Source: FCB group bacterium
GTDB taxonomy: Bacteria; Fidelibacterota; Marinisomatia; SCGC-AAA003-L08; JACNLC01
Reading direction: 5' to 3'
Assembly (NCBI GenBank): GCA_013152375.1
Contig: JAADGM010000038.1
Location: 1 to 40,897 of the forward strand
DNA: 40,897 bases
Part shown: positions 4,542 through 20,426 of the stretch, piece after piece
Layout: each line of letters opens with the position of its first letter
Numbering within the stretch: the first letter of the stretch is position 1
The notes under the pieces: generated by a model
Databases searched by the model: none
The model's input: the letters and a program-made list of their open reading frames with translations, nothing else
What the model was told of the DNA's origin: nothing
Program-made: the position numbers and the translations under genes

Positions 4542-5132
4542 TCAGGTCAGCGATAAAATCGTAAAATACCTGTTCACCCTTCTCCTGTAATCTGAAAAAG
4601 TGTCCCCATGAACCGACTGGAGGTATTTTTCCTCTTCTTTTATCATGGCATGAAAAGTAAAGACAAGGGCCAGATACAGCACTATCAGGAGAATAGAGGG
4701 GAATATCAGACAATAACCGAAAATCAGAATGTCATAAGATAAAAAGTACGGGTTGCGGCTGAATCGGTAAATGCCGTCGGTTATTAAATCCGTTTTTTGG
4801 TCGTATTTGATCCCCACTCTCCATGAACTTTTCATTGCGGACAGCGCCAGCAGGCCTAAAATAAACCCGATGGTAACAAATAAGAATCCAGCCGCCTTGA
4901 CGGCTTTAAATGCGGATATATCAAGTTCAAGAATCCATTTTGGGTCGAGAACTGTTAAGCGCAAAAAAATGAGACTGTAAATTGACGTTGATAACAGCAC
5001 CGATATCGTCAACCTGACGGATTTCCCTTTAATCGATTTATTGGTTGATAGATATGTCTTAATATTTCGGGCAAAAAATGCCAGAATAAAAAATATCAGG
5101 ATGAGCCCTAAATATATATTTTTTGCATCCAT
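4542..5132 (-). CDS. Isoprenylcysteine carboxyl methyltransferase / phospholipid methyltransferase-like membrane protein
   Basis: 196 aa; ICMT/PEMT-like signature LITDGIYRFSRNPYFLSYDILIFGYCLIFPS...MIKEEEKYLQSVHGDTFSDYRRRVNRYF. Confidence 0.85.
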   Translation of the reverse strand: MDAKNIYLGLILIFFILAFFARNIKTYLSTNKSIKGKSVRLTISVLLSTSIYSLIFLRLTVLDPKWILELDISAFKAVKAAGFLFVTIGFILGLLALSAMKSSWRVGIKYDQKTDLITDGIYRFSRNPYFLSYDILIFGYCLIFPSILLIVLYLALVFTFHAMIKEEEKYLQSVHGDTFSDYRRRVNRYFTILSLT

Positions 5133-5206
5133 CTAATAAAACTTATTCCCTGTTAGTTATTTTATGCGCTTTTAATAAATTTTTACAGCCGACAAGATCG
5201 TCCGGC

Positions 5207-5836
5207 CTAATTCACAGGAACATGTCCCGGGACTAATACCGATTTAATTGTGAATCCTTTCGATTTTATAACGCCTTCTATATCAGTTATATTTATTCTG
5301 GAATTATCAAACTTGATCACCGTAGTTCCCTTTTTAAAAGAAGTTTTAACGGCAATAATCCCATTTAACTGATTGACTGAATAGTTTATATTTTCTTCGC
5401 AGCCAGCACAGGATAACCCCTCAATGTAAAGTTCGATTGATTCAATATTTGCTTTTTCAACAATCATTATCGCTTTTTCCGTGACCTGATCGAATTGTTT
5501 CGGGAGATAAGAAATTGAGGTCATTACAACAACGAAAATCGCTACCAGCCAAACATAAAGTTTCGATTTTATGAATGATTTTTTCTCTGTATCACACCCT
5601 CCGGGGCACCGGCCTTCTTTTTGGGGTTTGTAAACCTGATAAAAAGCCAGACCTAAAGATAAAAACGATACGGTCAATAAATATGGCCTTAAAGTGCTCA
5701 ACCAGGAGAAATAAACAGAACTCCCACTCACTCCGGCCAAACCTGTCAAAAGTATTGGTCCCCAACAGCAGAGTTTTAAAGAAACCGCTGAGATGATGGC
5801 TGTTCCAACGGGGGTTGTCCTGCGAAAGTTTATCAT
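5207..5836 (-). CDS. merT: Mercuric transporter MerT fused to a C-terminal MerP-like HMA domain
   Basis: 209 aa; MerT-like N-terminal TM region with vicinal Cys (SLKLCCWGPILL), second Cys pair (CPGGC), then HMA domain with GLSCAGCEENINYSVNQLNGI. Confidence 0.85.
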   Translation of the reverse strand: MINFRRTTPVGTAIISAVSLKLCCWGPILLTGLAGVSGSSVYFSWLSTLRPYLLTVSFLSLGLAFYQVYKPQKEGRCPGGCDTEKKSFIKSKLYVWLVAIFVVVMTSISYLPKQFDQVTEKAIMIVEKANIESIELYIEGLSCAGCEENINYSVNQLNGIIAVKTSFKKGTTVIKFDNSRINITDIEGVIKSKGFTIKSVLVPGHVPVN

Positions 5837-6022
5837 TATTCAACCTCACTTATAAATCCTGAACCGGGATGATGACCGGAATATTCCCATCCCTGGTTTT
5901 CGAAAAGCTGTGCATCTTATATTCCATCGAACCCGAAGGGTACACAGACTCTTGGATCCAATAATAACGGCCATTTACCTCAGTATGCCACAACCTGCAG
6001 ATTGCAGGGGGAATAGTTTTTC

Positions 6023-6817
6023 TCATTTGCCAAGTTTTAAGATTTTTAACGCACCCTGGATTACGAACAAAAATACGATTGTACCCACAATCAGATCAGG
6101 GCGGTTGGAGTCAAGCCAGTGCACAAGCAGTCCGGCTGTGATCACACCCAAATTGATAATCACATCATTTGAGGTGAAAACCAAACTGGCTTTAATGTGA
6201 GCTTCTGCTTTGCTTTTAGATTTTTGCATCAGATACAGGCAAATTCCGTTCGCTATCAGGGCTAAAACAGAAACGATTATCATGGTTGAAAAATCCGGAA
6301 TTCTTTCCACTCCGAAAAACCGCCTAATGACTTCTGCAAATCCGATTACTGCCAATATTATTTGAAAATATCCGGCCAGTCTGGCAACCCTTTTCTTTAG
6401 CAGCAGAGTTCCGCCGACTGCAAAAAGACTGATCCCGTAAACGAAAGAGTCTGCCAGCATATCCAGGCTGTCGGCAATCAGCCCCATCGATTTTGCAACC
6501 AACCCGGTTGTTATTTCTATCAGAAAAAAAGCGAAATTAATTATAAGAACGGTCCAAAGCAGTTTTTGCTGATTTTTGTTTTCTGTCGTTTCAGCTGCTT
6601 CAACCTCTTCGGTGATCAATTTTTTTCCGCCAAGATTCAGCTCAAGAATGGAATGTTCAATTTGTTCAATTTGTCCGCTGTGCAAGATTATCAGTTTCCG
6701 GTCAGGAATATCAAATTCTAGGCCATGAATACTTGCAATACCCTCCAACTTGAGGCGGATTAAATGCTCTTCAGCCGGGCAGTCCATTTTTGTAATTTCA
6801 AAGGTTGTCTTGTGCAT
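6023..6817 (-). CDS. Cation diffusion facilitator-like transporter with N-terminal degenerate HMA-like domain
   Basis: 264 aa; N-terminal MHKTTFEITKMDCPAEEHLIRLKLEGI (ferredoxin-like HMA fold, only one Cys), then CDF-like TM core (SMGLIADSLDMLADSFVYGISLFAVG...VFTSNDVIINLGVITAG). Confidence 0.82.
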   Translation of the reverse strand: MHKTTFEITKMDCPAEEHLIRLKLEGIASIHGLEFDIPDRKLIILHSGQIEQIEHSILELNLGGKKLITEEVEAAETTENKNQQKLLWTVLIINFAFFLIEITTGLVAKSMGLIADSLDMLADSFVYGISLFAVGGTLLLKKRVARLAGYFQIILAVIGFAEVIRRFFGVERIPDFSTMIIVSVLALIANGICLYLMQKSKSKAEAHIKASLVFTSNDVIINLGVITAGLLVHWLDSNRPDLIVGTIVFLFVIQGALKILKLGK

Positions 6818-6859
6818 GCTTTTTTGCGATTTCAGTGCGTTAAGGGAAACCTCCTGAAA

Positions 6860-7054
6860 TCAGAAATTCATCTGTATCGTATAATCTATCATTTTACGGT
6901 TACTAAAATAAGTACCGGAATCCTCCAAGAAATTACCTCTGTCAGCGAACGTGAACAAATGATACATTTGCTTTGTTGACTCATCAAGAGGAACAAAATT
7001 AATCAGCTGCCATGATTTTCGCAGGGGCAAAATCGCCACGATCCGGAAAACCAC
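6860..7054 (-). pseudogene. Possible C-terminal remnant of an outer-membrane beta-barrel protein
   Basis: Short ORF ending ...GTYFSNRKMIDYTIQMNF with alternating hydrophobic residues and terminal Phe, resembling the last strand of an OMP; no upstream barrel coding in frame (in-frame TAA just upstream). Confidence 0.3.
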
Positions 7055-7135
7055 CCCCGTGCTTCCAATAAAAAATTAACTCAAAACGTGTTGCGGGATA
7101 ACGGTAAATTTAACCTTTAGAAAAAATCTTATAGA

Positions 7136-8008
7136 ATGAAACTTAATTTCAGAGAAGAACTCACCTTTGTCCTTCTGCACCTCATAAGCAGGTTCATCGG
7201 GTTATTACCACGGCGGGCAGGGCTGGCTCTGGGAAGTGCCCTGGGGAGACTGGTTTGGCATATTATCCCCTTGCGGCAGGAGACCAGCCTAAAAAATCTT
7301 GCCATTGCTTTCCCCGGGAACAGCTTGGAGGAGAACCGGAAACTTCTGAAAAAAACCTATAAACATTTTGGCAAAGCACTTATCGATATGATGCGCATTC
7401 CCCGGATCACCTTAAAATCACTTCCTGAAATTATAAGATTTAAGGACGGAGGGTTAGAACTGCTCAGAAAAGAGGGGAAAGGGATCATCCTGTCCGGACA
7501 TCTGGGAAACTGGGAGATGATTCTGCCTGCCATGGGGCTGAATAAGTTACCCTTTACAGGAGTTGCCCTGGTCCAGAAAAACCGCGGTTCCAGTGAATTC
7601 TTCAGATGGCTTCGAGAATGCACAGGTACAAAAATCCTATTCAAACGCAAAGATTCAACCCGGCAGATGGTTGAAGTTTTAAGGGATGGCTTTCTGGGAT
7701 TGGCCAGTGACCAGTACGCCGGTAAAAACGGTATTAAAATCGATTTCTTCGGCCGGGAAACCTCTGCACCGGCAGGTGCGGCAGCCTTCCATCTGAAAAC
7801 CGGAGCGACGGTTTTCTTTATGGTTTGTATTCTTCAGTCTGATGCGACCTATGAGATTGACGTAAAAAAAATGGTTTTTAAGGATCTTCCGGAGGACCAA
7901 TCCCAGGCGATCATGGAGATCAACAGCGCTTATCATCGGGAGCTTGAAGCGGCAATCCTCAGGCACCCCGAACAGTATTTCTGGTTTCATCGCAAGTGGA
8001 GGAACTGA
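7136..8008 (+). CDS. lpxL: Lysophospholipid / lipid A acyltransferase, LpxL-HtrB family
   Basis: 290 aa; HLGNWEM (HX4E) motif, SDQYAGKNGIKIDFFGRETSAPAGAAAFHLKTGATVF, C-terminal HPEQYFWFHRKWRN. Confidence 0.9.
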   Translation: MKLNFREELTFVLLHLISRFIGLLPRRAGLALGSALGRLVWHIIPLRQETSLKNLAIAFPGNSLEENRKLLKKTYKHFGKALIDMMRIPRITLKSLPEIIRFKDGGLELLRKEGKGIILSGHLGNWEMILPAMGLNKLPFTGVALVQKNRGSSEFFRWLRECTGTKILFKRKDSTRQMVEVLRDGFLGLASDQYAGKNGIKIDFFGRETSAPAGAAAFHLKTGATVFFMVCILQSDATYEIDVKKMVFKDLPEDQSQAIMEINSAYHRELEAAILRHPEQYFWFHRKWRN

Positions 8009-8589
8009 TGCTCTACCCTGCCGCAGATATCAACCTTGAATTTGCCGCCACAATTCTGGGAGAAGGGGACATTATCATCTATCCCACGGACACACTCTAC
8101 GGTTTTGGGGTTGATGCAACCAATGCCCGGGCAGTGGAACGTCTTGATGCCTTGAAACAGAGGGCCAGGCCCCTTAGTATTGTACTGTCTGCCGTCGGAG
8201 AAATCGACAAATATGCGGAAATTCCGCCCGAACACAAAACGCTCCTTAAAAAGCTGTTACCAGGACCCTATACCGTCCTGCTGCCGAAAAAAGACAGTGC
8301 TGTCGTTTCTGCCGTAACCCGGGAATCCCCCCTCATAGGTATCCGCATCCCGGCACATCCTTTTCCCACAAGTCTGGTTGCAATGTTCGGCAGGCCTATC
8401 ACGACAACCAGCATCAATCGGCACGGAGAAAACCCGAGTCTGACCCTGGAGGAGATCATCACCGCCTATCCTCAGATCCTGACCTTTAAGGATGGTGAGG
8501 CGATTGCGCAGAAGGGTTCAACCATTGTGGATCTTTCCGGCGAGATCCCCCTTTTGATACGCCGCGGAGCAGGAGCATTCCCCTTATGA
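8008..8589 (+). CDS. L-threonylcarbamoyladenylate synthase, Sua5/YciO/YrdC family
   Basis: ORF track begins at GTG 7996, but ATG 8008 overlaps the preceding stop (TGATG). Motifs IIYPTDTLYGFGVDATNARAVERLDALKQRARPLSIVL, RIPAHPF, TTTSINRHGENP. Confidence 0.92.
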   Translation: MLYPAADINLEFAATILGEGDIIIYPTDTLYGFGVDATNARAVERLDALKQRARPLSIVLSAVGEIDKYAEIPPEHKTLLKKLLPGPYTVLLPKKDSAVVSAVTRESPLIGIRIPAHPFPTSLVAMFGRPITTTSINRHGENPSLTLEEIITAYPQILTFKDGEAIAQKGSTIVDLSGEIPLLIRRGAGAFPL

Positions 8590-10430
8590 GCACCTATGCC
8601 CGGATTTTACGTTATGTAAAGCCTTACAAAGGTTTCGTCGTCGTGGCCCTGCTATCTTCTTTATTTTTTGTCACCATGAATTCATCTTCAGTCTGGATGG
8701 TGGGGTCACTCATCAGCAAGATCATGACACCCGCAGCCGAGATCGTCACGGATGTGGCTCCCCCAACCCCACCGGCCTTGTCGTTAAACGATAAACTGAA
8801 GGGTTTTACCGATTTCCTGATCGGTCACGGTGACCAGGCCAGTCAACTGGCGCGGCTTTGCCTGGTGTTATTGATCGTATTTCTGTTGAAGAATATTTTT
8901 TATTACATCAATAAGGTCACATTGGATTGGGTTCAAAATCGCTGGATAACGGATCTTCGGCAGGATCTTTTCACACATATTCACGCCCTGCCCCTGTCCT
9001 TTTTTGACCGGAATAAGTCCGCGGAACTTCAGTCCATCATGATTCGGGATGTGGATGTGATGCGCAGTGCCTTTACGCAGACAATTCAGAAACTCATCAT
9101 TGAGCCCGTGAATCTGCTGGCATTTATAACCCTGCTGTTCATCATCAGCGTAAAGATGACGCTCATCACATTGCTGATTATACCGGTCTCGGCCGTGGTC
9201 ATCGTGAAACTTGGTCAGAGCATACGGCGAAAGGCCCGGCGTTCCAGTATACAGATCGCCGGTGTAATGAATGTATTGCAGGAAACTCTGGCGGGGATGC
9301 GTATCGTCAAGGCCTTTTCCATGGAAAAGACCGAAATCAGGAAATTCAGCATTGAAAACAATAAATTTTTTAAACTCATCTTCAGACAGACGCGGATGAG
9401 GTCGATGAGTACGCCGATCAATGAGATCATCGGAGTTTCTATCGGAGTTGTCCTGCTGTGGGTTGGCGGTATGGATGTTCTCTCGGGCAAGGGTCTGGGG
9501 GGGGATGATTTCATGCGCTATATCATACTGCTCTTTGCCATGCTGCAGCCGGCCAAATCACTTGGGAATGTAAATTCCCAGATCCAGGCGGCTCTGGCCT
9601 CAGCAGACAGGGTCTTCAACATTCTCGATACGGATGCAACCCTCAAGGAAATTGCAAACCCCGTTCCCATCTCCCGGTTCACCGGAGTCATCGAATTTAA
9701 GGACGTTTCCTTTAAATATGAGTCCAGTGCGGTCCATTCGCTCAGCCATGTAGATGCCGCCATCCATAAGGGTGAGATTGTTGCTCTGGTGGGATTGAGC
9801 GGGGCCGGCAAGACGACCTTCGTGGATCTCATTCCGCGATTTTATGATGTGACCTCAGGCTCTATCACTATCGATGGGATTGATATCCGAAAACTTTCTC
9901 TTTCTTCGCTGAGGGGACTCATGGGGATTGTAACCCAGGAAACCATTCTGTTCAACGATACTATCGGCAATAACATCGCCTACGGCTCTCCTGATAAAAC
10001 ACCGGATCAGATTCGCAGAGCTGCCCGGATGGCCAATGCACTTGAGTTCATTGAGCAATTACCCGAGAAATTTGATACTCCTGCGGGAGAAAAGGGAGCT
10101 CGTCTGTCAGGCGGCGAAAAACAGCGGATCGCCATCGCCCGGGCTATATTGAAAGATCCTGAAATCCTGATCCTCGATGAAGCCACATCCGCCCTGGATA
10201 GTGAGGCGGAGCGAAAAGTACAGGAAGCAATCGATCTGCTGGTGAAAGATCGTACTGTCATTGTCATAGCGCATCGACTGTCCACCATTATCAAATCCGA
10301 TAAGATCATAGTTCTTGATAAAGGCATCATTGTGGAACAGGGTACACACAGCGAACTGTTGTCATTGAAGGGTAAATACCGCCAGCTTTATGATCTCCAA
10401 TTTAAAGATGAAATCGATGACAAAGGTTGA
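8586..10430 (+). CDS. msbA: MsbA-like ABC exporter (fused permease/ATPase)
   Basis: 614 aa; six-TM exporter domain; Walker A GLSGAGKTT, signature LSGGEKQRIAIARA, Walker B ILILDEATSALD, H-loop AHRLSTI. Confidence 0.92.
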   Translation: MSTYARILRYVKPYKGFVVVALLSSLFFVTMNSSSVWMVGSLISKIMTPAAEIVTDVAPPTPPALSLNDKLKGFTDFLIGHGDQASQLARLCLVLLIVFLLKNIFYYINKVTLDWVQNRWITDLRQDLFTHIHALPLSFFDRNKSAELQSIMIRDVDVMRSAFTQTIQKLIIEPVNLLAFITLLFIISVKMTLITLLIIPVSAVVIVKLGQSIRRKARRSSIQIAGVMNVLQETLAGMRIVKAFSMEKTEIRKFSIENNKFFKLIFRQTRMRSMSTPINEIIGVSIGVVLLWVGGMDVLSGKGLGGDDFMRYIILLFAMLQPAKSLGNVNSQIQAALASADRVFNILDTDATLKEIANPVPISRFTGVIEFKDVSFKYESSAVHSLSHVDAAIHKGEIVALVGLSGAGKTTFVDLIPRFYDVTSGSITIDGIDIRKLSLSSLRGLMGIVTQETILFNDTIGNNIAYGSPDKTPDQIRRAARMANALEFIEQLPEKFDTPAGEKGARLSGGEKQRIAIARAILKDPEILILDEATSALDSEAERKVQEAIDLLVKDRTVIVIAHRLSTIIKSDKIIVLDKGIIVEQGTHSELLSLKGKYRQLYDLQFKDEIDDKG

Positions 10431-11481
10431 TTTTGTATGGTCATCGGTAAAAGATTATGCTAATCTGTTGCCGCTTTATCAACATGTCAAAACTCTGAAC
10501 TGGGAAAGTGAGTTCTATAAAATCCACCGGCATTCGTTTAGAAACCGAAACGTACTGAAGAAGATCGGATCCACCATCATCATAGCATTTGATCAGCCTT
10601 TGAACCGGTTACGGAAGTCAGGCTGGGAAGGCAGCTTCATCTATGTGGAACATGGTTTGGGTCCTGTCAAGTATTACACCTATAAATATGATTTCTTTTA
10701 TGAGGCCTCGCTGCTGTTTTTTCCGGGTCCGGTTTTTCAGCGTAAGATGGCAGCGATCGACCCGAATTTTGACAGGGGACTCCTGGGTGGACTGCCCCGT
10801 ATTGATAATCTCGTCAATTCAGAGATTGACCGCGAAGAGTTATGTAATCGATACGGCTTGGAGCCGGAGTTACCGGTTATCCTTTTTGCACCAACCTGGG
10901 GTGGGAAATACGGTGCGGACTTCGGGATTCGAAATGCCCGCTATCTGCAGGGGCTCCCGAATGTGATCATCGCCCCGCACCCGTCAGATTATCGGATTGC
11001 CCGTAAATACGGGGGCGTTATTCCCGAAAAAAAGGGTGACATAAACCCGCTGATCAGATTGGCGGATGTGGTAGTCAGCGATGTTTCCTCTATCCTTGCG
11101 GAAGCGGCAATCCTTGATACACCCGTGGTACAGATCGAATTACCGGCTTATCCGGGGTGTTTTCCGGAAAGGGAAAAAAGAAAGACAGGAATTAGGATAT
11201 CAGAGGCTCTCCTCCGTACTGAAGAGCAGACAGACAGGATAAGGCGTCCTTTCAAAATTGCCTATCTCGATGAAGACTGGGTGATGGGACACACGTGTAA
11301 ACCCGAGGATCTGCAGGCCACGGTTGAACAGGCGCTGCAGAATCCCGGGGAGTTTTCAGCTGCCCGGAAATACTGGGCACAGCAAAGCTGCTGGAAAGCT
11401 GATGGCCGGACCTGTATCCGTATGGCAAAAATGATTTCACACCATCTTAATACGGGTGAAATAAAACAGGTGGAGAATTGA
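10417..11481 (+). CDS. CDP-glycerol glycerophosphotransferase-like (TagB/TarF family) protein
   Basis: Starts inside the msbA 3' end (ATG at 10390/10408/10417). Signatures YVEHGLGPVKYYTYK, PVILFAPTWGGKYGA, NVIIAPHPSDYRIARKYG, NPLIRLADVVVSDVSSILAEAAILDTPVVQIELP. Confidence 0.82.
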   Translation: MTKVDFVWSSVKDYANLLPLYQHVKTLNWESEFYKIHRHSFRNRNVLKKIGSTIIIAFDQPLNRLRKSGWEGSFIYVEHGLGPVKYYTYKYDFFYEASLLFFPGPVFQRKMAAIDPNFDRGLLGGLPRIDNLVNSEIDREELCNRYGLEPELPVILFAPTWGGKYGADFGIRNARYLQGLPNVIIAPHPSDYRIARKYGGVIPEKKGDINPLIRLADVVVSDVSSILAEAAILDTPVVQIELPAYPGCFPEREKRKTGIRISEALLRTEEQTDRIRRPFKIAYLDEDWVMGHTCKPEDLQATVEQALQNPGEFSAARKYWAQQSCWKADGRTCIRMAKMISHHLNTGEIKQVEN

Positions 11482-12173
11482 TGGCGGTGACAGGGATCAT
11501 TCTTGCCGGCGGCAACTCACGGCGTTTTGGCGGCGATACGCCCAAGCAGTTTCAAATGCTCGGAGGAAAACGTGTACTTGAGTATTCGGTTCTGAGCTTC
11601 ACACGCAATCCTCAGATTAATGATATCATCATCGTCGTCCCTGAGAACTGGCTGCCAATAATTCAAAAGGAGTTTACAGAGGCCCTGGTTGTACCCGGTG
11701 GGCAATCGCGAAAAGCCTCTTCGCTGAGAGGTCTTCAGGCCTGTTCGGATAAGACGACAAAAGTGCTGATCCATGATGCCGCCAGGATGTTTGTCGATGC
11801 AGATATCATCCAACGCTGCCTGGATGCACTGGAAAATTCGGCAGCTGTGGCTACAATTTGGCCTGTTAAAGACACGATTGCCGAGGTCGAAAGCGATCAA
11901 TTGCTGCAGATACCGGAACGGTCAAGGCTTTTTGCTCAACAAACACCACAGGGTTTTGATTATCAGACAATATTAAAAGCCCACCGTACGAGTTCAGGAC
12001 CCGCGACCGATGATATTCAGCTCGTGTTAAAACTGGGATACCCCTGTACAACGGTGCCCGGTTCCGAGCTCAACTATAAAATAACCACCAGACTGGATCT
12101 CAAGATCGCCGCAGGGCTGCTGAATGACCCGGAAGTTGTCAGGATCTTCGACTGGTATCAGGATAAGGACTAA
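11481..12173 (+). CDS. IspD/TarI-family cytidylyltransferase
   Basis: IILAGGNSRRFGGDTPKQFQMLGGKRVLEYSV, VLIHDAARMFVDADII, PVKDTI, FAQQTPQGFDYQTILKAH, TDDIQLVLKLGYPCTTVPGSELNYKITTRLDLKIA. Start overlaps the previous stop (TGATG). IspD versus ribitol-P cytidylyltransferase cannot be resolved by eye. Confidence 0.88.
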   Translation: MAVTGIILAGGNSRRFGGDTPKQFQMLGGKRVLEYSVLSFTRNPQINDIIIVVPENWLPIIQKEFTEALVVPGGQSRKASSLRGLQACSDKTTKVLIHDAARMFVDADIIQRCLDALENSAAVATIWPVKDTIAEVESDQLLQIPERSRLFAQQTPQGFDYQTILKAHRTSSGPATDDIQLVLKLGYPCTTVPGSELNYKITTRLDLKIAAGLLNDPEVVRIFDWYQDKD

Positions 12174-12174
12174 C

Positions 12175-12846
12175 ATGCGCGCTATTATTTTAGCAGCGGG
12201 GATCGGTTCAAGACTGGGAAAACCCCATCCCAAACCCCTCACCAGACTTGCCAGCGGTGAAACCATACTCGAAAGACAGATTGACCGTCTGACGCGGTTT
12301 CTGACCCTGGATGATATCATCCTTGTTGTTGGATACAAAAAGGACCTAATCATGGAGAGATTTCCCAGACTTACCTATGTCTATAATAATTTTTATGACA
12401 CCACGAATACCGCCTCCAGTCTGCTGGCAGGCTTGCGCAAAGTACGGAACGAAGATGTTCTCTGGCTGAATGGTGATGTCGTATTCGAGCAGGAAGCGCT
12501 TGAGCGTATCCTGGCGGCGAAAGTATCCGCTGTGGCGGTGAATACCGATTCGGTGGGCGATGAGGAAATTAAATATACACTGAATGAAGAAGGTGCGATA
12601 CTGGACCTTTCAAAAACTGTGAAGAACGGTCTCGGTGAAGCTGTTGGGATAAACCTTGTCAGGGCGGCTGATCTGTCGCGGCTGGTAGCCGGCCTCGAAC
12701 GATGCGAAGCTAACGATTACTTCGAGCGGGGGATAGAAATCGCAGCCCGGGAAGGTTTAAAGATGTTCCCGGTATATATTAATAATTTACTTTGTATGGA
12801 AATTGACTTCGAAGAAGACTTGAAGAATGTTAACGATAGATTATAG
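12175..12846 (+). CDS. LicC-like nucleotidyltransferase (choline-phosphate or other alcohol/sugar-phosphate cytidylyltransferase)
   Basis: MRAIILAAGIGSRLGKPHPKPLTRL...NNFYDTTNTASSLLAGL...VLWLNGDVVFEQEAL; C-terminal LLCMEIDFEEDLKNVND. ATG at 12175 is preferred to the ORF-track start at 12124. Confidence 0.82.
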   Translation: MRAIILAAGIGSRLGKPHPKPLTRLASGETILERQIDRLTRFLTLDDIILVVGYKKDLIMERFPRLTYVYNNFYDTTNTASSLLAGLRKVRNEDVLWLNGDVVFEQEALERILAAKVSAVAVNTDSVGDEEIKYTLNEEGAILDLSKTVKNGLGEAVGINLVRAADLSRLVAGLERCEANDYFERGIEIAAREGLKMFPVYINNLLCMEIDFEEDLKNVNDRL

Positions 12847-12861
12847 GACGGGAAATTAGTA

Positions 12862-14019
12862 GTGGTACAGCCTGACGCGCGGCATTACCAGATTCATATC
12901 CGCCAGGTAGGAAAAATGGAAGACTTCAGCAATATCATAGAGATCATCACCGAAATCTGTCGATGTTTACGGGTTACAAAAATCCCCCATGTCATTGGCG
13001 GGGAAACACTGGCGGGCCTGACTGAAAACAACCTGACAAAATATGCCAATAACATCACTTTTTATATCATCGATGTTACACCGGCAAAGCTCTTCTTGTT
13101 ATCCATTCTGCTGCTTCGTCACAGGATTTTATTCAAGGTCAAAATAATTGACGGCAGCATTGTTTATAAGCTCCGCAAGAAACCATCCGTGACGAAAAAG
13201 AATCCCGAGTATTATTTGCTGCATCCCCTGAAGACCCGGGGGGATCTGCTGCAGGGGAAAATCGGTAATCGGGAAATCCGTTTCGACAGATCAGATATAA
13301 ACGCCCAAAGCGTCAGTGAGGTTTACCTTGACGGATGTACTTTCCCAGTGCCGGAGAACCCAAAAGCCTTCGTTCGGAAATATAATCAGAACCTCTTTGC
13401 ATCTTTCTATAAACGTTATGATATATATCTCGACGGGGACTCTGAAATAAAGGCCGTCACGCTGCTTGAAAAAATTGCAGATGTTATTGAAACAGAAAAA
13501 TGTGAGTACTGGCTTGACGGGGGAACCTTGTTAGGTGCCGTTCGGGATGGCAAACTCATTCCCTGGGATCACGATTTAGACCTGGGACTGAAGTACAAAA
13601 GTGATGAACAGATCCGTAGTCTCATCACGGCCCTGAAAAAGAAATTTTATGTTCGCGTGCTGCCGTTTTCCCGAAAAACCCATATCTGGCAATTAGGGAA
13701 GTACAGGGTGCTGAAAGTGTATCCCAGAAAATTCAGATTCGGCCGGGATAAACTCTGTGCCGATATTTTTATATTTTACAGAGGGACTTTGGATCAAACC
13801 CGGGAGATCGTCTATAAATATGGTGTATGGGATCAGAATGCAGTTCACAACCACCAGGTTCTGGATACACTTTCGACCCTCACCTTTTATGGCAGAGAAT
13901 ATTCTGTTCCCGGACAGCCGGAGAAATTTCTCCAGGCTAAATACGGTAAGGACTGGCGGACACCCAGGAAAGATTGGCACGTCAGCCTCGATGATAAAAC
14001 TTTGACCAGAGCATCCTGA
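12862..14019 (+). CDS. LicD/fukutin-family phosphotransferase with two tandem NTase-like domains, the first degenerate
   Basis: C-terminal half: YWLDGGTLLGAVRDGKLIPWDHDLDLGL (LicD/FKRP-type catalytic signature). N-terminal half carries a matching HVIGGETLAGLTENNLTKYANNITFYI. GTG at 12862, or ATG at 12916 with upstream AGGTAGGAAAA. Confidence 0.82.
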   Translation: MVQPDARHYQIHIRQVGKMEDFSNIIEIITEICRCLRVTKIPHVIGGETLAGLTENNLTKYANNITFYIIDVTPAKLFLLSILLLRHRILFKVKIIDGSIVYKLRKKPSVTKKNPEYYLLHPLKTRGDLLQGKIGNREIRFDRSDINAQSVSEVYLDGCTFPVPENPKAFVRKYNQNLFASFYKRYDIYLDGDSEIKAVTLLEKIADVIETEKCEYWLDGGTLLGAVRDGKLIPWDHDLDLGLKYKSDEQIRSLITALKKKFYVRVLPFSRKTHIWQLGKYRVLKVYPRKFRFGRDKLCADIFIFYRGTLDQTREIVYKYGVWDQNAVHNHQVLDTLSTLTFYGREYSVPGQPEKFLQAKYGKDWRTPRKDWHVSLDDKTLTRAS

Positions 14020-14026
14020 GGAGGTG

Positions 14027-14620
14027 ATGAAGAAATCAATTCTCATCCTGGGGAATGGAGAGTCCGTTTTAAAATATGAGTTTGGAAGTGCTATAGATGA
14101 CTTCCCTACGGTAGGACGGATTAATAACTATACAACCATCGGTTTTGAAAAATACATTGGCTCAAAGACGGATATCTGGTTCAACGGCGCCAATCAAACA
14201 CTCAAAAAACGTCCCCATAAACCGGGGAGAATTGTCGTTCTGATCCCTCCTGCAGTTTTGGTCCATAAGGGCGATGCCATTCACCCCCGGATCATGAAAA
14301 GGCTGGAGGTCGAGTCAACACAGTATGAGCTCGTTCCACTTGCTGACATGGAGCGATTTGCCAGGAAAAGCGGTGTGGCCCGTCCGACGACCGGTTTGGC
14401 GGCTATTCTCTGGGCACTGGAACATTATGACGAGGTGACCATCCACGGGTTTGACTTTTTCATTTCATCTAAAGGACATTACAATGATTCGCCTCTCACA
14501 AGGTGGCTCATTCGCAGAGGTATCCTGAAAAAAGCTAAAAAACATGATCTGTCCGGCGAAAAGATTTTTGTAGAAGCTCTCCTGAAGTCCGGGGAGCTGT
14601 ACTTGCTGGGTTCACCGTAA
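14027..14620 (+). CDS. Glycosyltransferase family 29 (sialyltransferase)-like protein, cytoplasmic
   Basis: Strong RBS (GAGGAGGTG-ATG). Motif L-like ILILGNGESVL...IDDFPTVGRINNYTTIGFEKYIGSKTDIW; motif S-like RPTTGLAAILWALEHYDEVTIHGFDFF; motif III-like GHYND; motif VS-like HDLSGE. No Cys and no TM helix. Confidence 0.78.
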   Translation: MKKSILILGNGESVLKYEFGSAIDDFPTVGRINNYTTIGFEKYIGSKTDIWFNGANQTLKKRPHKPGRIVVLIPPAVLVHKGDAIHPRIMKRLEVESTQYELVPLADMERFARKSGVARPTTGLAAILWALEHYDEVTIHGFDFFISSKGHYNDSPLTRWLIRRGILKKAKKHDLSGEKIFVEALLKSGELYLLGSP

Positions 14621-14759: not shown

Positions 14760-15443
14760 ATGAAAATATTAGCATTTATCCCCGCCAGGGGTGGCAGTAA
14801 AGGGGTGCCGGGTAAGAATATCAGGGAGTTTGCAGGCAAGCCCCTCATCGTTCACAGTATCGAACAGGCGTTGGAAACGCCGATGATAGATGAAGTTGTT
14901 CTGTCCACGGACGACCGCAAGATCGCCGTTATTGCCCAAAATGCCGGAGCCCGTGTAATTGAACGCCCGGCCGAGATTTCAGGGGACACGGCCAGTACCG
15001 AAAGTGCCATTGCACACGCTATTTCCGTATTCAAATCGGAAGATGCATCGCCGGATATTCTCGTACTCATGCAGGCCACGAGTCCCCTCAGGCCTCCTAA
15101 CGCTCTGACGGCTGCCCTGGAAAAATTTATCCTGCATCGCTTTGATTCCCTGGTTACCCTGACACCCACCCACCGCTTTTTATGGGGTATATCCGGAGAA
15201 AAAGCAGTACCACGGTATGATTTTATGAATCGTCCCCGGCGCCAGGATATTAAAACAGAAGATGCAACTTATGTAGAGACAGGCTCTTTTTATATCTTTA
15301 CGCGTCGCCATTTTGAAACCACAGGGAACCGTCTGGGAGGTGAGATCGGGTATTATATCCTCCCGGAAGAATACGGCTATGAGATTGATACTATAACAGA
15401 TTTTCTGATGTTGGAGGCTATTCATAAAAATATCTCCGCCTGA
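14760..15443 (+). CDS. neuA: CMP-nonulosonate synthetase-like cytidylyltransferase (NeuA family)
   Basis: FIPARGGSKGVPGKNIREFAGKPLIVHSIEQAL, DEVVLSTDD, RPAEISGDTASTESAIAHA, LMQATSPLRPPNAL. Confidence 0.88.
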   Translation: MKILAFIPARGGSKGVPGKNIREFAGKPLIVHSIEQALETPMIDEVVLSTDDRKIAVIAQNAGARVIERPAEISGDTASTESAIAHAISVFKSEDASPDILVLMQATSPLRPPNALTAALEKFILHRFDSLVTLTPTHRFLWGISGEKAVPRYDFMNRPRRQDIKTEDATYVETGSFYIFTRRHFETTGNRLGGEIGYYILPEEYGYEIDTITDFLMLEAIHKNISA

Positions 15444-15450
15444 TTTCCCG

Positions 15451-17406
15451 ATGCGGGTAACGAGAATTCCATTGCCTGTGCAATTTTACGTTACCCTGGC
15501 GGGTTTTGCTGTCATTATTCTGCTGATAAATTGTTGGCGGATGGTATTTCTGTTAAGCCAGCTCTCCGAACTGAAAATAGAATATCTGACGACTTATGCA
15601 GCGGCCTTTTGGGTTGGTTTTCCCCTTGACGCCGTCATTGCCGGGTATTTCATTCTCCCGGTTTTCCTCACGATTTACTGGCCGTGGATCGGATGGCATT
15701 CAAAACGATATCCCCGGTTTTTCAGATCGTACATGGCCCTTGTGTTTGCGATCATTTCATTTCTTCAGCTGGCGGATATTTCCTTTTTTTCAGAATTCGG
15801 CACTCATTTGAATCTGCTTGCCGTCCAGCACAATGCCACACAGCAGGATACACTTCGCTATATTTGGCACAATTATCCCGTGGTTTGGTATGTTGTGGTT
15901 ATTGTGCTGGTATCGTTGGGTCTCTCTTTACTGCTGGGGAAAATTATCCGAAAACTGCCTGATACAGTTGCGAAATGGGGGTGGAACACAGCCTCAATCC
16001 TGGCCGGTCTGATCCTGCTTTTCACTGCAGTGAGGGGTGGCTGGCAGGAACGGCCTGTGGATTGGGGAATTGCCATGTTCAGTGATCATGCTCCCGCAAA
16101 TCAAATTGCCCTTAACCCCATTTTTTTCCTGGGCCGTTCAGTCCTTGAGCTGTCTTCTGAAAAAAATCTGGATCAACAGCTGACTTACTACGACCTTTCC
16201 GAGGCTATTGCCGAAACCCGGGAATTACTGAACGACGGCAGTATAAAATTTACCGATGATCATACGCTCAGCAGGGTCTTCGTCAACCCAGCGAAGCCCA
16301 TATCACCCAATATTGTACTGGTGATCATGGAGTCTCAGGTAGGGGAATTTTGCGGCTTCATCAATCCGGAAATGAAAGCTGTCACGCCAAACCTTGACAC
16401 CCTGGCGGAAAAAGGGCTCATGTTCAGAAACTGTTTTGCCAACGGCAAACGGTCTGCTTACGGCATTAGTTCACTGCTTTGCTCCTGGCCTGTAATACCG
16501 GGATTTCCCCTCATTTCTCAGATTGAATCTGCACGAAGGATCACCACGGCCGGCACGATTTTTAAAACGCTGGGATACGAAACCTGTTTTCTGTATGGAG
16601 GAGATGCGGACTTTGATAATATGAAAGGGTTCGTCACCGCAAATGGATTTGATCGTGTTATCGAGAGGGATGCATTCCCGGCCTTTACACCGGGTACTAC
16701 CTGGGGGGTCTTCGATCATTTCGTATTTGCAAAAGCCCTTTCATTGCTGGACGAAGCTTCGGCGCCGTTATTTTTGACCCTGTTCACAACGACGAATCAC
16801 CAGCCTTTTATCGTACCGGAGGAATATGAACCTTTCATCCCGGAATTGCCAAAATCAACTTACCGTGAAGGTAAACCCTTGCGGACCATGTCCTATGTGG
16901 ATAGGGTGATCGGTGAATTCATGGCGAAAGGAAAGGATCATCCCTGGTTTGAAAATACGCTGTTCATCTTCATTTCGGACCATGGACTCTCGGTCCACAG
17001 GGAAATTTTTGAAGATCCCCGTAATGCCAATATTCCCTTTCTGATGTATGGCCCGTCGATCATCAAAACACCCCGGGTGGTGGATTCGGTCGTCAGCCAG
17101 GTGGATGTTCTTCCACAGATTCTTTCGCTGATCGGCTACCCGAGTGAATTTTCAGTATTCGGCAGGAATGCACTTGCTGATGAAAAGGGCTTTGCCTGTC
17201 GCGTGACAAATGATCACGTACTTTGGGTAGAAAAGGAATTGCTTTATGAAGAAAATCTGGGACAGAACAGCAGACTTTTTCAGTACAAATCACTTTATCA
17301 GGCGCCCTACCAGGAAATCCCCGCCACAGATCCACGATTTCAGGATGTCCAAAAACGCTGCAGATCCTATCTGCAATCTGCCTTTTTTCTGTTCAAGGAA
17401 AGATAA
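15451..17406 (+). CDS. LTA synthase-like membrane phosphoglycerol/phospho-alcohol transferase (alkaline-phosphatase/sulfatase fold)
   Basis: 651 aa; about five N-terminal TM segments, then NIVLVIMESQVGEF, FANGKRSAYGISSLLCSWP (likely nucleophile Ser), LFTTTNHQPF, FIFISDHGLSVHREIFEDPRNANIPFLMYGP. Confidence 0.85.
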   Translation: MRVTRIPLPVQFYVTLAGFAVIILLINCWRMVFLLSQLSELKIEYLTTYAAAFWVGFPLDAVIAGYFILPVFLTIYWPWIGWHSKRYPRFFRSYMALVFAIISFLQLADISFFSEFGTHLNLLAVQHNATQQDTLRYIWHNYPVVWYVVVIVLVSLGLSLLLGKIIRKLPDTVAKWGWNTASILAGLILLFTAVRGGWQERPVDWGIAMFSDHAPANQIALNPIFFLGRSVLELSSEKNLDQQLTYYDLSEAIAETRELLNDGSIKFTDDHTLSRVFVNPAKPISPNIVLVIMESQVGEFCGFINPEMKAVTPNLDTLAEKGLMFRNCFANGKRSAYGISSLLCSWPVIPGFPLISQIESARRITTAGTIFKTLGYETCFLYGGDADFDNMKGFVTANGFDRVIERDAFPAFTPGTTWGVFDHFVFAKALSLLDEASAPLFLTLFTTTNHQPFIVPEEYEPFIPELPKSTYREGKPLRTMSYVDRVIGEFMAKGKDHPWFENTLFIFISDHGLSVHREIFEDPRNANIPFLMYGPSIIKTPRVVDSVVSQVDVLPQILSLIGYPSEFSVFGRNALADEKGFACRVTNDHVLWVEKELLYEENLGQNSRLFQYKSLYQAPYQEIPATDPRFQDVQKRCRSYLQSAFFLFKER

Positions 17407-17534: not shown

Positions 17535-18590
17535 ATGAGGACTATAAAAATTGGTGACAGAATTATTGGCGACGATCATCCGGCACTGGTAATTGCTGAA
17601 ATTGGCATCAATCACCAGGGCGATATTGAAATTGCAAAACAGTTGATCCAGCAGGCCCAGATCTGCGGGGCTGATGCAGTCAAATTTCAGAAAAGAACCA
17701 TCTCCCGAATTCTCACCCGGGCAGGTCTCGATGCGCTCTACGATAACCCGAATAGTTTTGGCAGGACCTATGAAGAACACAAAATCGCTCTGGAACTCTC
17801 AGAACGGGATTATGCTGAACTTCAGCAGCTGGCAAATGATTTGGGGCTGATGTTCATAGCCTCAGGCTGGGATGAGCAAAGCATAGACTTCCTGGATGAA
17901 TTAGGGGTCCCTTTTTTCAAGATGGCTTCGGCGGACCTGACGAATCATCCTCTGCTTGAATACACTGCAAAGAAGGGAAAAGCCATGGTCCTGTCAACCG
18001 GCATGGCGGACCTGACGATGGTGAGAGAGGCCTATGCCTTAGTGAGTGAATACAGTGATCAAATTGCCATTTTGCAATGTACTTCAACCTATCCTTCTTC
18101 TTTTGAGGAAATAAACCTGAACGTTATTAAGACCTATCTTGAAGAATTCCCCAATGCAGTCATCGGGTACTCCGGCCATGAGCTGGGGATTGCCATTCCG
18201 CCGGTGGCCGTTGCACTGGGAGCCCGCATCATCGAGCGGCATTTTACGCTGGACAGAACCATGAAAGGAGGGGACCACGCGGCCTCTCTGGAACCGCCCG
18301 GATTTTCAAAAATGGTCCGGGACATCCACCATGTTGAGCTGGCAATGGGAGTGGGTGACAAGCAGGTTCAGGAATCTGAAAAACCTATTTTCGTAAAACT
18401 GGCAAAGAGCCTTGTGTCACTGGTGGAAATAAAAAAAGGGGAAATAATTACACGGGAAATGTTGACGACCAAAGGACCGGGTACGGGCATCTCTCCCGTG
18501 AAGATGGATCTTGTTGTGGGCAAAAAAGCCCTAAAAAATGTCCCGGCAGATACTGTTCTGAAAAATGATGACATCGACTGGGCATCTTAA
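17535..18590 (+). CDS. neuB: Sialic acid/nonulosonic acid synthase (NeuB/NANS family) with C-terminal SAF domain
   Basis: 351 aa; IAEIGINHQGDIEIAKQLI, VKFQKRTI, FIASGWDEQSIDFLDELGVPFFKMASADLTN, LQCTSTYPSS, AVIGYSGHELGIAIPPVAVALGARIIERHFTLDRTMKGGDHAASLEP, C-terminal SAF region. Confidence 0.92.
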   Translation: MRTIKIGDRIIGDDHPALVIAEIGINHQGDIEIAKQLIQQAQICGADAVKFQKRTISRILTRAGLDALYDNPNSFGRTYEEHKIALELSERDYAELQQLANDLGLMFIASGWDEQSIDFLDELGVPFFKMASADLTNHPLLEYTAKKGKAMVLSTGMADLTMVREAYALVSEYSDQIAILQCTSTYPSSFEEINLNVIKTYLEEFPNAVIGYSGHELGIAIPPVAVALGARIIERHFTLDRTMKGGDHAASLEPPGFSKMVRDIHHVELAMGVGDKQVQESEKPIFVKLAKSLVSLVEIKKGEIITREMLTTKGPGTGISPVKMDLVVGKKALKNVPADTVLKNDDIDWAS

Positions 18591-18606: not shown

Positions 18607-19122
18607 ATGTCAAAATCAACCCAGGAGAAACCCTCTTCCAGATTAGCCTCAACCATTAAACTGGTCGGTACGGATATCGATGGCGTCTGGACGGATGCAA
18701 AAATGTACTATACCGCCGACGGAGATTTTATGAAGGCCTTCTCAACCTATGACGGAGCGGGAGTTCAACTTCTCAGGGACAACGGAATTGAGGTTGTCAT
18801 CCTCACAGGAGAAAACTCTCCCATTGTCAGCAGAAGGGCGGAAAAGCTCGGGATCACCAGAGTTTGGCTGGGCGAAAAACAAAAGCTGAAGCGGATGCGT
18901 TATATCTGCCAGCAAATGAATATCGGGATGGATGAAGTCGCTTACATAGGTGATGATATCAATGACCTTGCCCTGCTGAAAGAGGTGGGGTTTTCTGCGC
19001 TGCCCCCCAACAGTCCTATTCAACATCGGTTTACACCGGATTATGTGACCCTGAGACGAGGGGGTGAGGGAGCCTTCAGAGATTTTGTTGAAGAAATTCT
19101 TAGTTCCACTTTTAAAAGCTGA
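18607..19122 (+). CDS. KdsC-like HAD phosphatase (Kdo-8-P or nonulosonate-9-P phosphatase type)
   Basis: 171 aa; LVGTDIDGVWTDAKMYY (DxDGV nucleophile motif), VILTGENSPIVSRRAEKLGI, YIGDDINDLALLKEVGFSALPPNS. Confidence 0.88.
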   Translation: MSKSTQEKPSSRLASTIKLVGTDIDGVWTDAKMYYTADGDFMKAFSTYDGAGVQLLRDNGIEVVILTGENSPIVSRRAEKLGITRVWLGEKQKLKRMRYICQQMNIGMDEVAYIGDDINDLALLKEVGFSALPPNSPIQHRFTPDYVTLRRGGEGAFRDFVEEILSSTFKS

Positions 19123-19148: not shown

Positions 19149-20426
19149 ATGCTTTTCTATATTTTTTATACATTTCTGTCCCCGGTTTTTGCCATCCTGC
19201 TGGTAGTATCAGCACTGTTTAATCGGAAAATTCGTCTTCACCTGTGGCACCAGTCCGCAACTTTAGCAAGGGCTGCAGCCGTAGTCAGAAAAAACCGGAA
19301 TAAAAAACAGGTCGTGATTTTTCATGCGGCCTCAGCCGGGGAATTTGAGCAGCTCAAACCCATTCTTGAAGCGTTGGATCGGGGGAAATATCTGCTCGTA
19401 CAGACCTTTTTTTCACCGACAATCTATCAAAAAGCGTCCGGATCAAAATTATTCGACGTCTGTCTTTATCATCCCTTCGATCTGCCCTGGTCTGCTGCAA
19501 GGTTTTTTCGACTGTTAAAACCGGACTATTATATTCTCACCCGTCATGATATCTGGCCTCATCATGTGCATCAGGCGAAGAAAAGGGGCATCAAGACTGT
19601 ACTGATCAATGCGAATCTGCATCTTAAATCCGCCCGTCTGCACCCCCTCCTGCTGTCCCTTAACCGTTGGCTTTTTCATCATTTTGACCTCATCACAACC
19701 GGCTCACAAAGACTTCGGGAGAATCTTTCCGGGCTATGTTCGACAGAAAAGGTTTTCGTGACGGGCGATACGCGATTTGACCAGGTGATCCGCCGCGCAG
19801 AAGCACAGCAGGATAAATTGCTGTCCGAAAATTTTATTTCAAAGAATAATATGATCTTTGGGAGTATAATTACATCTGACCATCCTTTGATTTTTGGAGC
19901 GCTTAGCGTCTTTTATCCCGACGGGTCAAAAACACTCATTGAACGGGAGCAACGTCTTATTCTGGTTCCTCACGAGGTCGATGAATCTACGCTGCTCGTC
20001 ATAGAAGCAAAACTAAAGGAACTGAAGTTCACCCCTCGGCGTTACAGCAAACTCATGAAAACAACAGATACACATGTACTTCTCGTTGACGAAACCGGTA
20101 TCCTGCCCGACCTTTACCGCTATGCATCGCTGGCCTATATCGGTGCCGGATTCGGTGCCGGCGTCCATTCGGTACTGGAGCCGGCAGTTTATGGAACCGT
20201 TGTCTCCTTCGGTCCCAATATCCACATACTGGATGAAGCAATTTCGATGTTCGAGTTGGGAATCGGCAGGATGGTGTACACGGCCGAAGATCTTGCAGAC
20301 TTTATGCATCTTTTGACAGATAAAGAAAAACAAAAGGAATTATCTGAGCAAACTCGTAAGTTTGTACTGGACAACAGTGGTGTCACTTCCCATCTGATCA
20401 ATCTTATTTTTGGAGCATCAGTCTGA
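19149..20426 (+). CDS. waaA: 3-deoxy-D-manno-octulosonic acid (Kdo) transferase family protein
   Basis: 425 aa; N-terminal TM anchor, HAASAGEFEQLKPILEAL, LLVQTFFSPTIYQKA, LTRHDIWPHHVHQAKKRGIKTVLINANL, FGSIITSDHPLIF, YIGAGFGAGVHSVLEPAVYGTVVSFGPN. Confidence 0.9.
   Translation: MLFYIFYTFLSPVFAILLVVSALFNRKIRLHLWHQSATLARAAAVVRKNRNKKQVVIFHAASAGEFEQLKPILEALDRGKYLLVQTFFSPTIYQKASGSKLFDVCLYHPFDLPWSAARFFRLLKPDYYILTRHDIWPHHVHQAKKRGIKTVLINANLHLKSARLHPLLLSLNRWLFHHFDLITTGSQRLRENLSGLCSTEKVFVTGDTRFDQVIRRAEAQQDKLLSENFISKNNMIFGSIITSDHPLIFGALSVFYPDGSKTLIEREQRLILVPHEVDESTLLVIEAKLKELKFTPRRYSKLMKTTDTHVLLVDETGILPDLYRYASLAYIGAGFGAGVHSVLEPAVYGTVVSFGPNIHILDEAISMFELGIGRMVYTAEDLADFMHLLTDKEKQKELSEQTRKFVLDNSGVTSHLINLIFGASV

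Follow-up and report, generated by a model that had tools for sequence, protein, structure and literature searches.

Why would a bacterial transferase of the LicD/fukutin family carry two LicD-type domains in tandem, when one of them lacks the aspartates expected to hold metal ions? This question is raised by a gene of the window, i.e. the whole stretch of 40,897 nucleotides analysed here (contig JAADGM010000038.1 of an FCB group bacterium). From its sequence, an earlier note had proposed that a whole domain was duplicated and that copy 1 then lost its metal-binding residues. After following up this proposal with profile comparisons, domain phylogenies and genome context, we are fairly confident that the protein is a phospho-group transferase of this family built from two homologous LicD domains.

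A degenerate and a catalytic-type LicD domain in one protein

The open reading frame occupies positions 12862-14019 on the forward strand, as do its domains and motifs, and translates without stop, giving 385 residues if GTG 12862 is taken as the start. The true start is probably ATG 12916 (residue 19 of the 385-residue form), as it is preceded by AGGTAGG and as an orthologue of 79% identity in a Candidatus Neomarinimicrobiota MAG (locus L026) starts at the same point. The tandem LicD protein would thus extend over 12916-14019 and count 367 residues; unless stated otherwise, residue numbers follow the 385-residue form. The peptides quoted in the earlier note all lie where it placed them, except that LTKYANNITFYI ends at 13068 and not one codon further, at 13071.

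Copy 2 (13432-14019) is a catalytic-type LicD domain, matching Pfam LicD (PF04991) with 59.5 bits for a cut-off of 22.6. It carries the hG[GS] motif as LDGGT, the WDHDLD motif (13564-13581) with D236, D238 and D240, a further aspartate, D301 (13762-13764), within CADIF, and the C-terminal LicD motif starting with LTFYGREYSVPGQPEKFLQAKYGKDW (13879-13965 in the hhalign register). The sole PDB relative of this half found by sequence is human FKRP, in which D360, D362, D364 and D416 correspond by alignment to D236, D238, D240 and D301. These four FKRP residues have been mutated, and D362, D364 and D416 have been named as the conserved acidic set (PMC6965139).

The nature of copy 1 (12916-13431, residues 19-190) was less easily established. 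The earlier note had suggested a self-alignment, and here the resemblance of the two halves was no better than that of shuffled sequences: the direct Smith-Waterman score of 32 was reached by 308 of 1000 shuffles and is not significant. Under BLAST, one of the two peptide pairs on which the duplication had been based (VPENPKAFVRKY / VPGQPEKFLQAKY, the second) was detected, and the first was not. Scanning the N halves of the window's protein and its homologues (hereafter type A) alone against Pfam gave no match. As a single sequence would not by itself uphold the claimed duplication, profiles were built from relatives: 4 further full-length homologues were present among 60 relatives, and 23 in all, the window's included, were gathered from 245 genomes of the phylum.

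With these profiles, the 23 N halves aligned to 41 catalytic LicD domains with an hhalign probability of 97.3, an E-value of 1.8e-11 and a score of 75. The match runs in order over 149 of about 175 columns and includes the C-terminal VP...F...KY motif of LicD. Control scores stayed far lower, at most 18.1 for 60 column permutations, 15.6 for the reversed profile and at most 20.1 for eight unrelated neighbour families. The alignment pairs HVIGGETLAGL with YWLDGGTLLGA, LTKYANNITFYI with LIPWDHDLDLGL, and the VPENPKAF region with VPGQPEKF; the C-terminal motif of copy 1, starting with VYLDGCTFPVPENPKAFVRKY (13321-13407), thereby pairs with 13879-13965. Both peptide correspondences of the earlier note are recovered in the same register, and the whole-domain duplication that it had deduced from them is borne out by this match and its controls, by residue counts in 36 tandem proteins and by a second tandem family described below.

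Structural searches were less informative. Profile searches of PDB with the N halves matched no NTase structure, and AlphaFold models made from a two-sequence input (window and L026) had a pLDDT of 35 for the full length and of 43 for the N half modelled by itself; Foldseek on this N-half model gave no match at E 0.001. Unlike the GT-like stem of FKRP, the N half matched no GT and matched LicD profiles instead. From the sequence profiles, we infer that it has an NTase fold.

The stretch LTKYANNITFYI (13033-13068) marks, in the domain alignment, the site of the lost WDxDxD metal-binding motif. This loss, claimed for the single protein, turns out to be real and family-wide: none of the 36 N domains of tandem proteins keeps the full aspartate set, against 41 of the 41 catalytic-type domains, C-terminal or single (one of them with an X at D240). 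The fourth aspartate (D301, FKRP D416), which the earlier note had not considered, has also disappeared from copy 1. The middle aspartate is replaced by asparagine in 17/23 type A N copies and in all 13 N copies of the second tandem family, and it is retained in six type A N domains; metal ligands in the N half may also have migrated. In addition, the hG[GS] motif is changed to GxE in type A N halves. We infer from these changes that the N copy is catalytically dead and, as not one of the 36 keeps the aspartate set, we class the N half by its sequence as a LicD-derived pseudo-domain and not as an active LicD.

Maintenance and origin of the degenerate copy

Comparison of the window's protein with its L026 orthologue gives a dN/dS of 0.14 for the N half and 0.10 for the C half, rough values since dS exceeds 1, and this indicates purifying selection on the N copy. 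Among 10 diverse type A N halves, L32, G34, Y43, L62, K74, K76, K85, K95, P146, F152 and L160 (numbered from ATG 12916) are invariant; Y43, K74, K76, K85 and K95 are Y61, K92, K94, K103 and K113 of the 385-residue form. Nevertheless, the N halves have diverged more than the C halves in 241 of the 253 type A pairs and in 78 of 78 pairs of the second family, and this faster evolution could mean that constraint was relaxed and not that a precise new role was gained.

We consider binding of an acceptor or of a partner to be the most likely role of the N copy, as it fits the purifying selection, the conserved lysines and the precedent of FKRP. Other explanations were weighed against it. The N half might be an accessory domain of another fold, such as the GT-like stem of FKRP, resembling LicD in two short motifs only: FKRP itself carries a non-LicD stem, the halves show no significant similarity when compared directly and Pfam does not recognize type A N halves, but the long, ordered profile match and the far lower controls render this very improbable. 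It is also rather unlikely that the N half is an inert tethered relic serving folding or stability, with neither acceptor nor partner to bind. Such a relic would account for the faster evolution of N halves, and single-domain LicD proteins of the same phylum do manage without an N half; yet its dN/dS of 0.14, its own invariant residues and its persistence in every type A protein, even in distant families of the phylum, are difficult to reconcile with inertness. The N half could finally retain a cryptic ligand site, binding the CDP donor or the product with no metal catalysis of its own and regulating or feeding the C half. In favour of this, a C-half lysine that varies hardly if at all, K285, aligns with a lysine in 23/23 type A N halves, although the alignment is uncertain in this lysine stretch, and where the enzyme that makes the donor differs, the subclade differs for the N and the C half alike. 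Since type A N halves have GxE instead of hG[GS] and lack the metal ligands, we give this reading little credit.

The second tandem family, type B, consists of different proteins of about 400 residues from other genomes of the phylum (Marinisomatota). Here the duplication is easily seen: N and C halves match each other with an hhalign E-value of 1e-38, and of three type B N halves scanned one at a time, two exceed the cut-off of Pfam LicD. Their N copies also lack the aspartates, for instance with RDGRLIPNKKNLTIGIP in place of RDGKLIPWDHDLDLGL of an active copy. The domain tree places type B N copies as the sister group of the type B C copies (99/95), and type A N copies form a single very long branch (100/100) of unsure placement. 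A tree joining both N groups is worse by 9.8 log units (AU p 0.034). This lends mild support, tempered by the long branches, to two separate duplications having probably given rise to types A and B. If instead one ancient duplication had produced both types, parallel loss of the aspartates would not have to be invoked, and the loss of the same residues in both, with asparagine so often at the middle position, would follow simply. The length of the type A N branch, which makes its placement unsure, leaves room for such a history; however, the grouping of type B N copies with type B C copies and the rejection, albeit weak and with long-branch caveats, of a joint N group make it doubtful in our eyes. 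Elsewhere, viral, phage and plasmid collections yielded relatives of the C half only and no tandem, and a pattern-limited scan of all genomes returned L026 alone.

Gene neighbourhood, donor and acceptor

The tandem LicD gene lies within a run of envelope genes, those given with coordinates in this paragraph being on the forward strand as well. Upstream are encoded an MsbA-like protein, a TagF/CpsA-type (PF04464) polyol-phosphate transferase-like protein (10390-11481), which is a conserved neighbour, an IspD (11478-12173; TIGR00453, 190 bits for a cut-off of 181) and a CTP-dependent cytidylyltransferase of the LicC/PntC/inositol-1-phosphate type (12175-12846, start probably 12175; Pfam NTP_transf_3), whose nearest PDB relatives are PntC, inositol-1-P cytidylyltransferase and LicC. 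Directly downstream comes a glycosyltransferase of the sialyltransferase family GT29 (14024-14620, Pfam 56.1 bits). The same run comprises a CMP-nonulosonate/Kdo-type cytidylyltransferase (PseF/KdsB type, 14760-15443), a NeuB-type nonulosonate synthase (17535-18590), a HAD protein of the KDN-9-phosphate phosphatase type (18607-19122; NF058599, 184 bits for a cut-off of 180) and a KdtA-like glycosyltransferase of the Kdo transferase family (19149-20426).

Wherever the contig continues, the 19 main type A loci share a gene order of TagF-like, cytidylyltransferase, tandem LicD and GT29, and the cytidylyltransferase is the conserved upstream partner in 18 of these 19. Between TagF and LicD, locus L038 lacks a cytidylyltransferase; in L083, about 3.6 kb of other DNA separates cytidylyltransferase and LicD. 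Four paralogues (L064-L067) have none of the operon's neighbours within the stretch read. Most type A loci contain the LicC/PntC-like enzyme, and six have a fusion of IspD with a short-chain dehydrogenase (SDR), of about 431 residues, TarI-TarJ/Bcs1-like and nearest in PDB to TarI-type enzymes. The LicD proteins of these six loci constitute a single subclade, with support in the N tree as well as in the C tree. The fusions, for example at L084:6826-8118, from L081:6667 onwards, from L086:6041 onwards and in L080, replace the LicC-like gene.

The donor of the tandem protein is probably made by the adjoining cytidylyltransferase (12175-12846). The window's IspD as a CDP-ribitol maker was a weaker candidate: no other full-length IspD was found in the genome, and it most resembles isoprenoid enzymes, of which it is probably one. 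A phosphonate donor was set aside, as no PEP mutase was found in the genome and the sole match reads as PanB beside PanC.

The GT29 protein, bacterial and of 198 residues only, is conserved beside the tandem LicD; bacterial GT29 sequences have been described as a basal group (PMC5811610). Locus L085 has an additional NeuB-like gene and a pair of GT29 genes around its tandem LicD operon (51-629 and 4806-9063). At 15451-17406, within the gene run of the tandem LicD, the window encodes a sulfatase-fold membrane protein resembling the phosphoglycerol transferases OpgB/LtaS, which is present in L026 and in none of the other type A loci compared.

As to the acceptor, we looked at KDO-8-phosphate synthase (KdsA). 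It was found in 0/19 genomes with a type A locus (G000, G001, G009, G015, G059 and 14 of family f30, G222-G238) against 162/226 others, an association with an uncorrected Fisher p of 2.6e-10 that has to be read with most type A genomes being related. G059 stands alone in its family, most members of which have KdsA, and 16 of 17 type B genomes possess it. Because KdsA is absent from type A genomes and present in most others, a nonulosonate made by NeuB, perhaps KDN, may replace Kdo in type A bacteria, as far as a correlation can tell. The type A locus itself, with its NeuB-type, KDN-9-phosphatase-type, CMP-transferase, GT29 and KdtA-like genes, possibly directs a Kdo-free LPS core based on nonulosonate.

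A probably dead LicD domain beside its catalytic-type twin

Our best reading of these sequences is that the protein is a CDP-dependent phospho-group transferase and that its pseudo-LicD domain would bind the acceptor or a partner. Copy 2 would be the catalyst, holding metal ions via D236, D238, D240 and D301, and would transfer to a surface glycan a phospho-alcohol unit, resembling phosphocholine, AEP or a polyol phosphate and taken from a CDP/CMP donor, as expected from knowledge of the family and from alignment with FKRP. The donor would come from the adjoining cytidylyltransferase, LicC/PntC-like here and the IspD-SDR fusion in one subclade. The acceptor would probably be a nonulosonate-containing lipid-linked core elaborated by the TagF-like, GT29, NeuB-type and KdtA-like proteins of the gene run. 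The dead N copy, kept by selection, would grip this anionic acceptor or an operon partner enzyme, or hold an oligomer together. We would propose, quite tentatively, a more specific scenario. In it, the dead twin would be dedicated to docking an LPS core that is based on nonulosonate and free of Kdo, the two-domain enzyme would have been adapted to different CDP donors through exchange of the adjoining cytidylyltransferase gene, and the fusion of pseudo-LicD and LicD would have arisen twice in one phylum, the same residues being lost in parallel.

These features recall those of the human ribitol-phosphate transferases FKRP and fukutin (PMC6965139, PMC4873967), which share the C-terminal LicD/NTase domain with its four aligned aspartates and, like the tandem protein, have a catalytically dead enzyme-like domain at the N-terminus. 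In FKRP, this stem is a dead GT fold in which H252/K256 bind the acceptor phosphate and which supports the dimer that activity requires (PMC6965139). The dead domain is thus GT-like in FKRP and a second copy of LicD in the tandem protein; the acceptor is dystroglycan for FKRP, whereas a bacterial lipid-linked glycan is expected here. FKRP transfers ribitol-phosphate from CDP-ribitol, and an IspD-SDR neighbour is found in one subclade of the tandem proteins but not in the window.

Single-domain LicD proteins (LicD, Mycoplasma Mf1, Actinobacillus pleuropneumoniae CpsC; PMC11666461) have the catalytic domain in common with the tandem protein, but their locus differs and we found no second, degenerate LicD copy described for them. 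In A. pleuropneumoniae, CpsA (PF04464) and CpsC (LicD) act in turn on a Kdo-anchored acceptor (PMC11666461); CpsC therefore works beside a PF04464 enzyme, and the tandem LicD operon also has such a neighbour. In the licCD phosphocholine system, LicC goes with LicD, a choline kinase and an importer; here a LicC-like gene adjoins the tandem LicD. Relatives of the LicC/PntC cytidylyltransferases (PMC6697681) and of TarI-TarJ/Bcs1-type CDP-ribitol synthases fill the slot upstream, as partners and not as relatives of the tandem protein. For the architecture, a precedent exists in the oligoadenylate synthetases OAS2/OAS3 (PMC7264852), where only one of the tandem NTase-type units is active, as is likely here; they belong to another NTase family, with other substrates and organisms, and are a precedent for architecture only.

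Literature searches, which were not exhaustive, found no description of LicD pseudoenzymes or of tandem LicD proteins. LicD domains are known, as are dead accessory domains and tandem NTases; what we did not find described is the fusion of an inactive LicD to an active one within a conserved operon.

A pseudoenzyme domain fused to its active twin offers a clean view of what a fold can do apart from catalysis. FKRP, the related human muscular-dystrophy enzyme in which a dead enzyme domain grips the substrate, shows that a LicD transferase can depend on such a domain for acceptor recognition, and evolution appears to have reached an FKRP-like arrangement here with a dead LicD copy, the genes for donor and acceptor lying alongside. 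If confirmed, the tandem protein would serve as a bacterial model for how members of the fukutin/FKRP family recognize their acceptors, and would give access to an unusual glycan in the outer membrane of uncultured marine bacteria.
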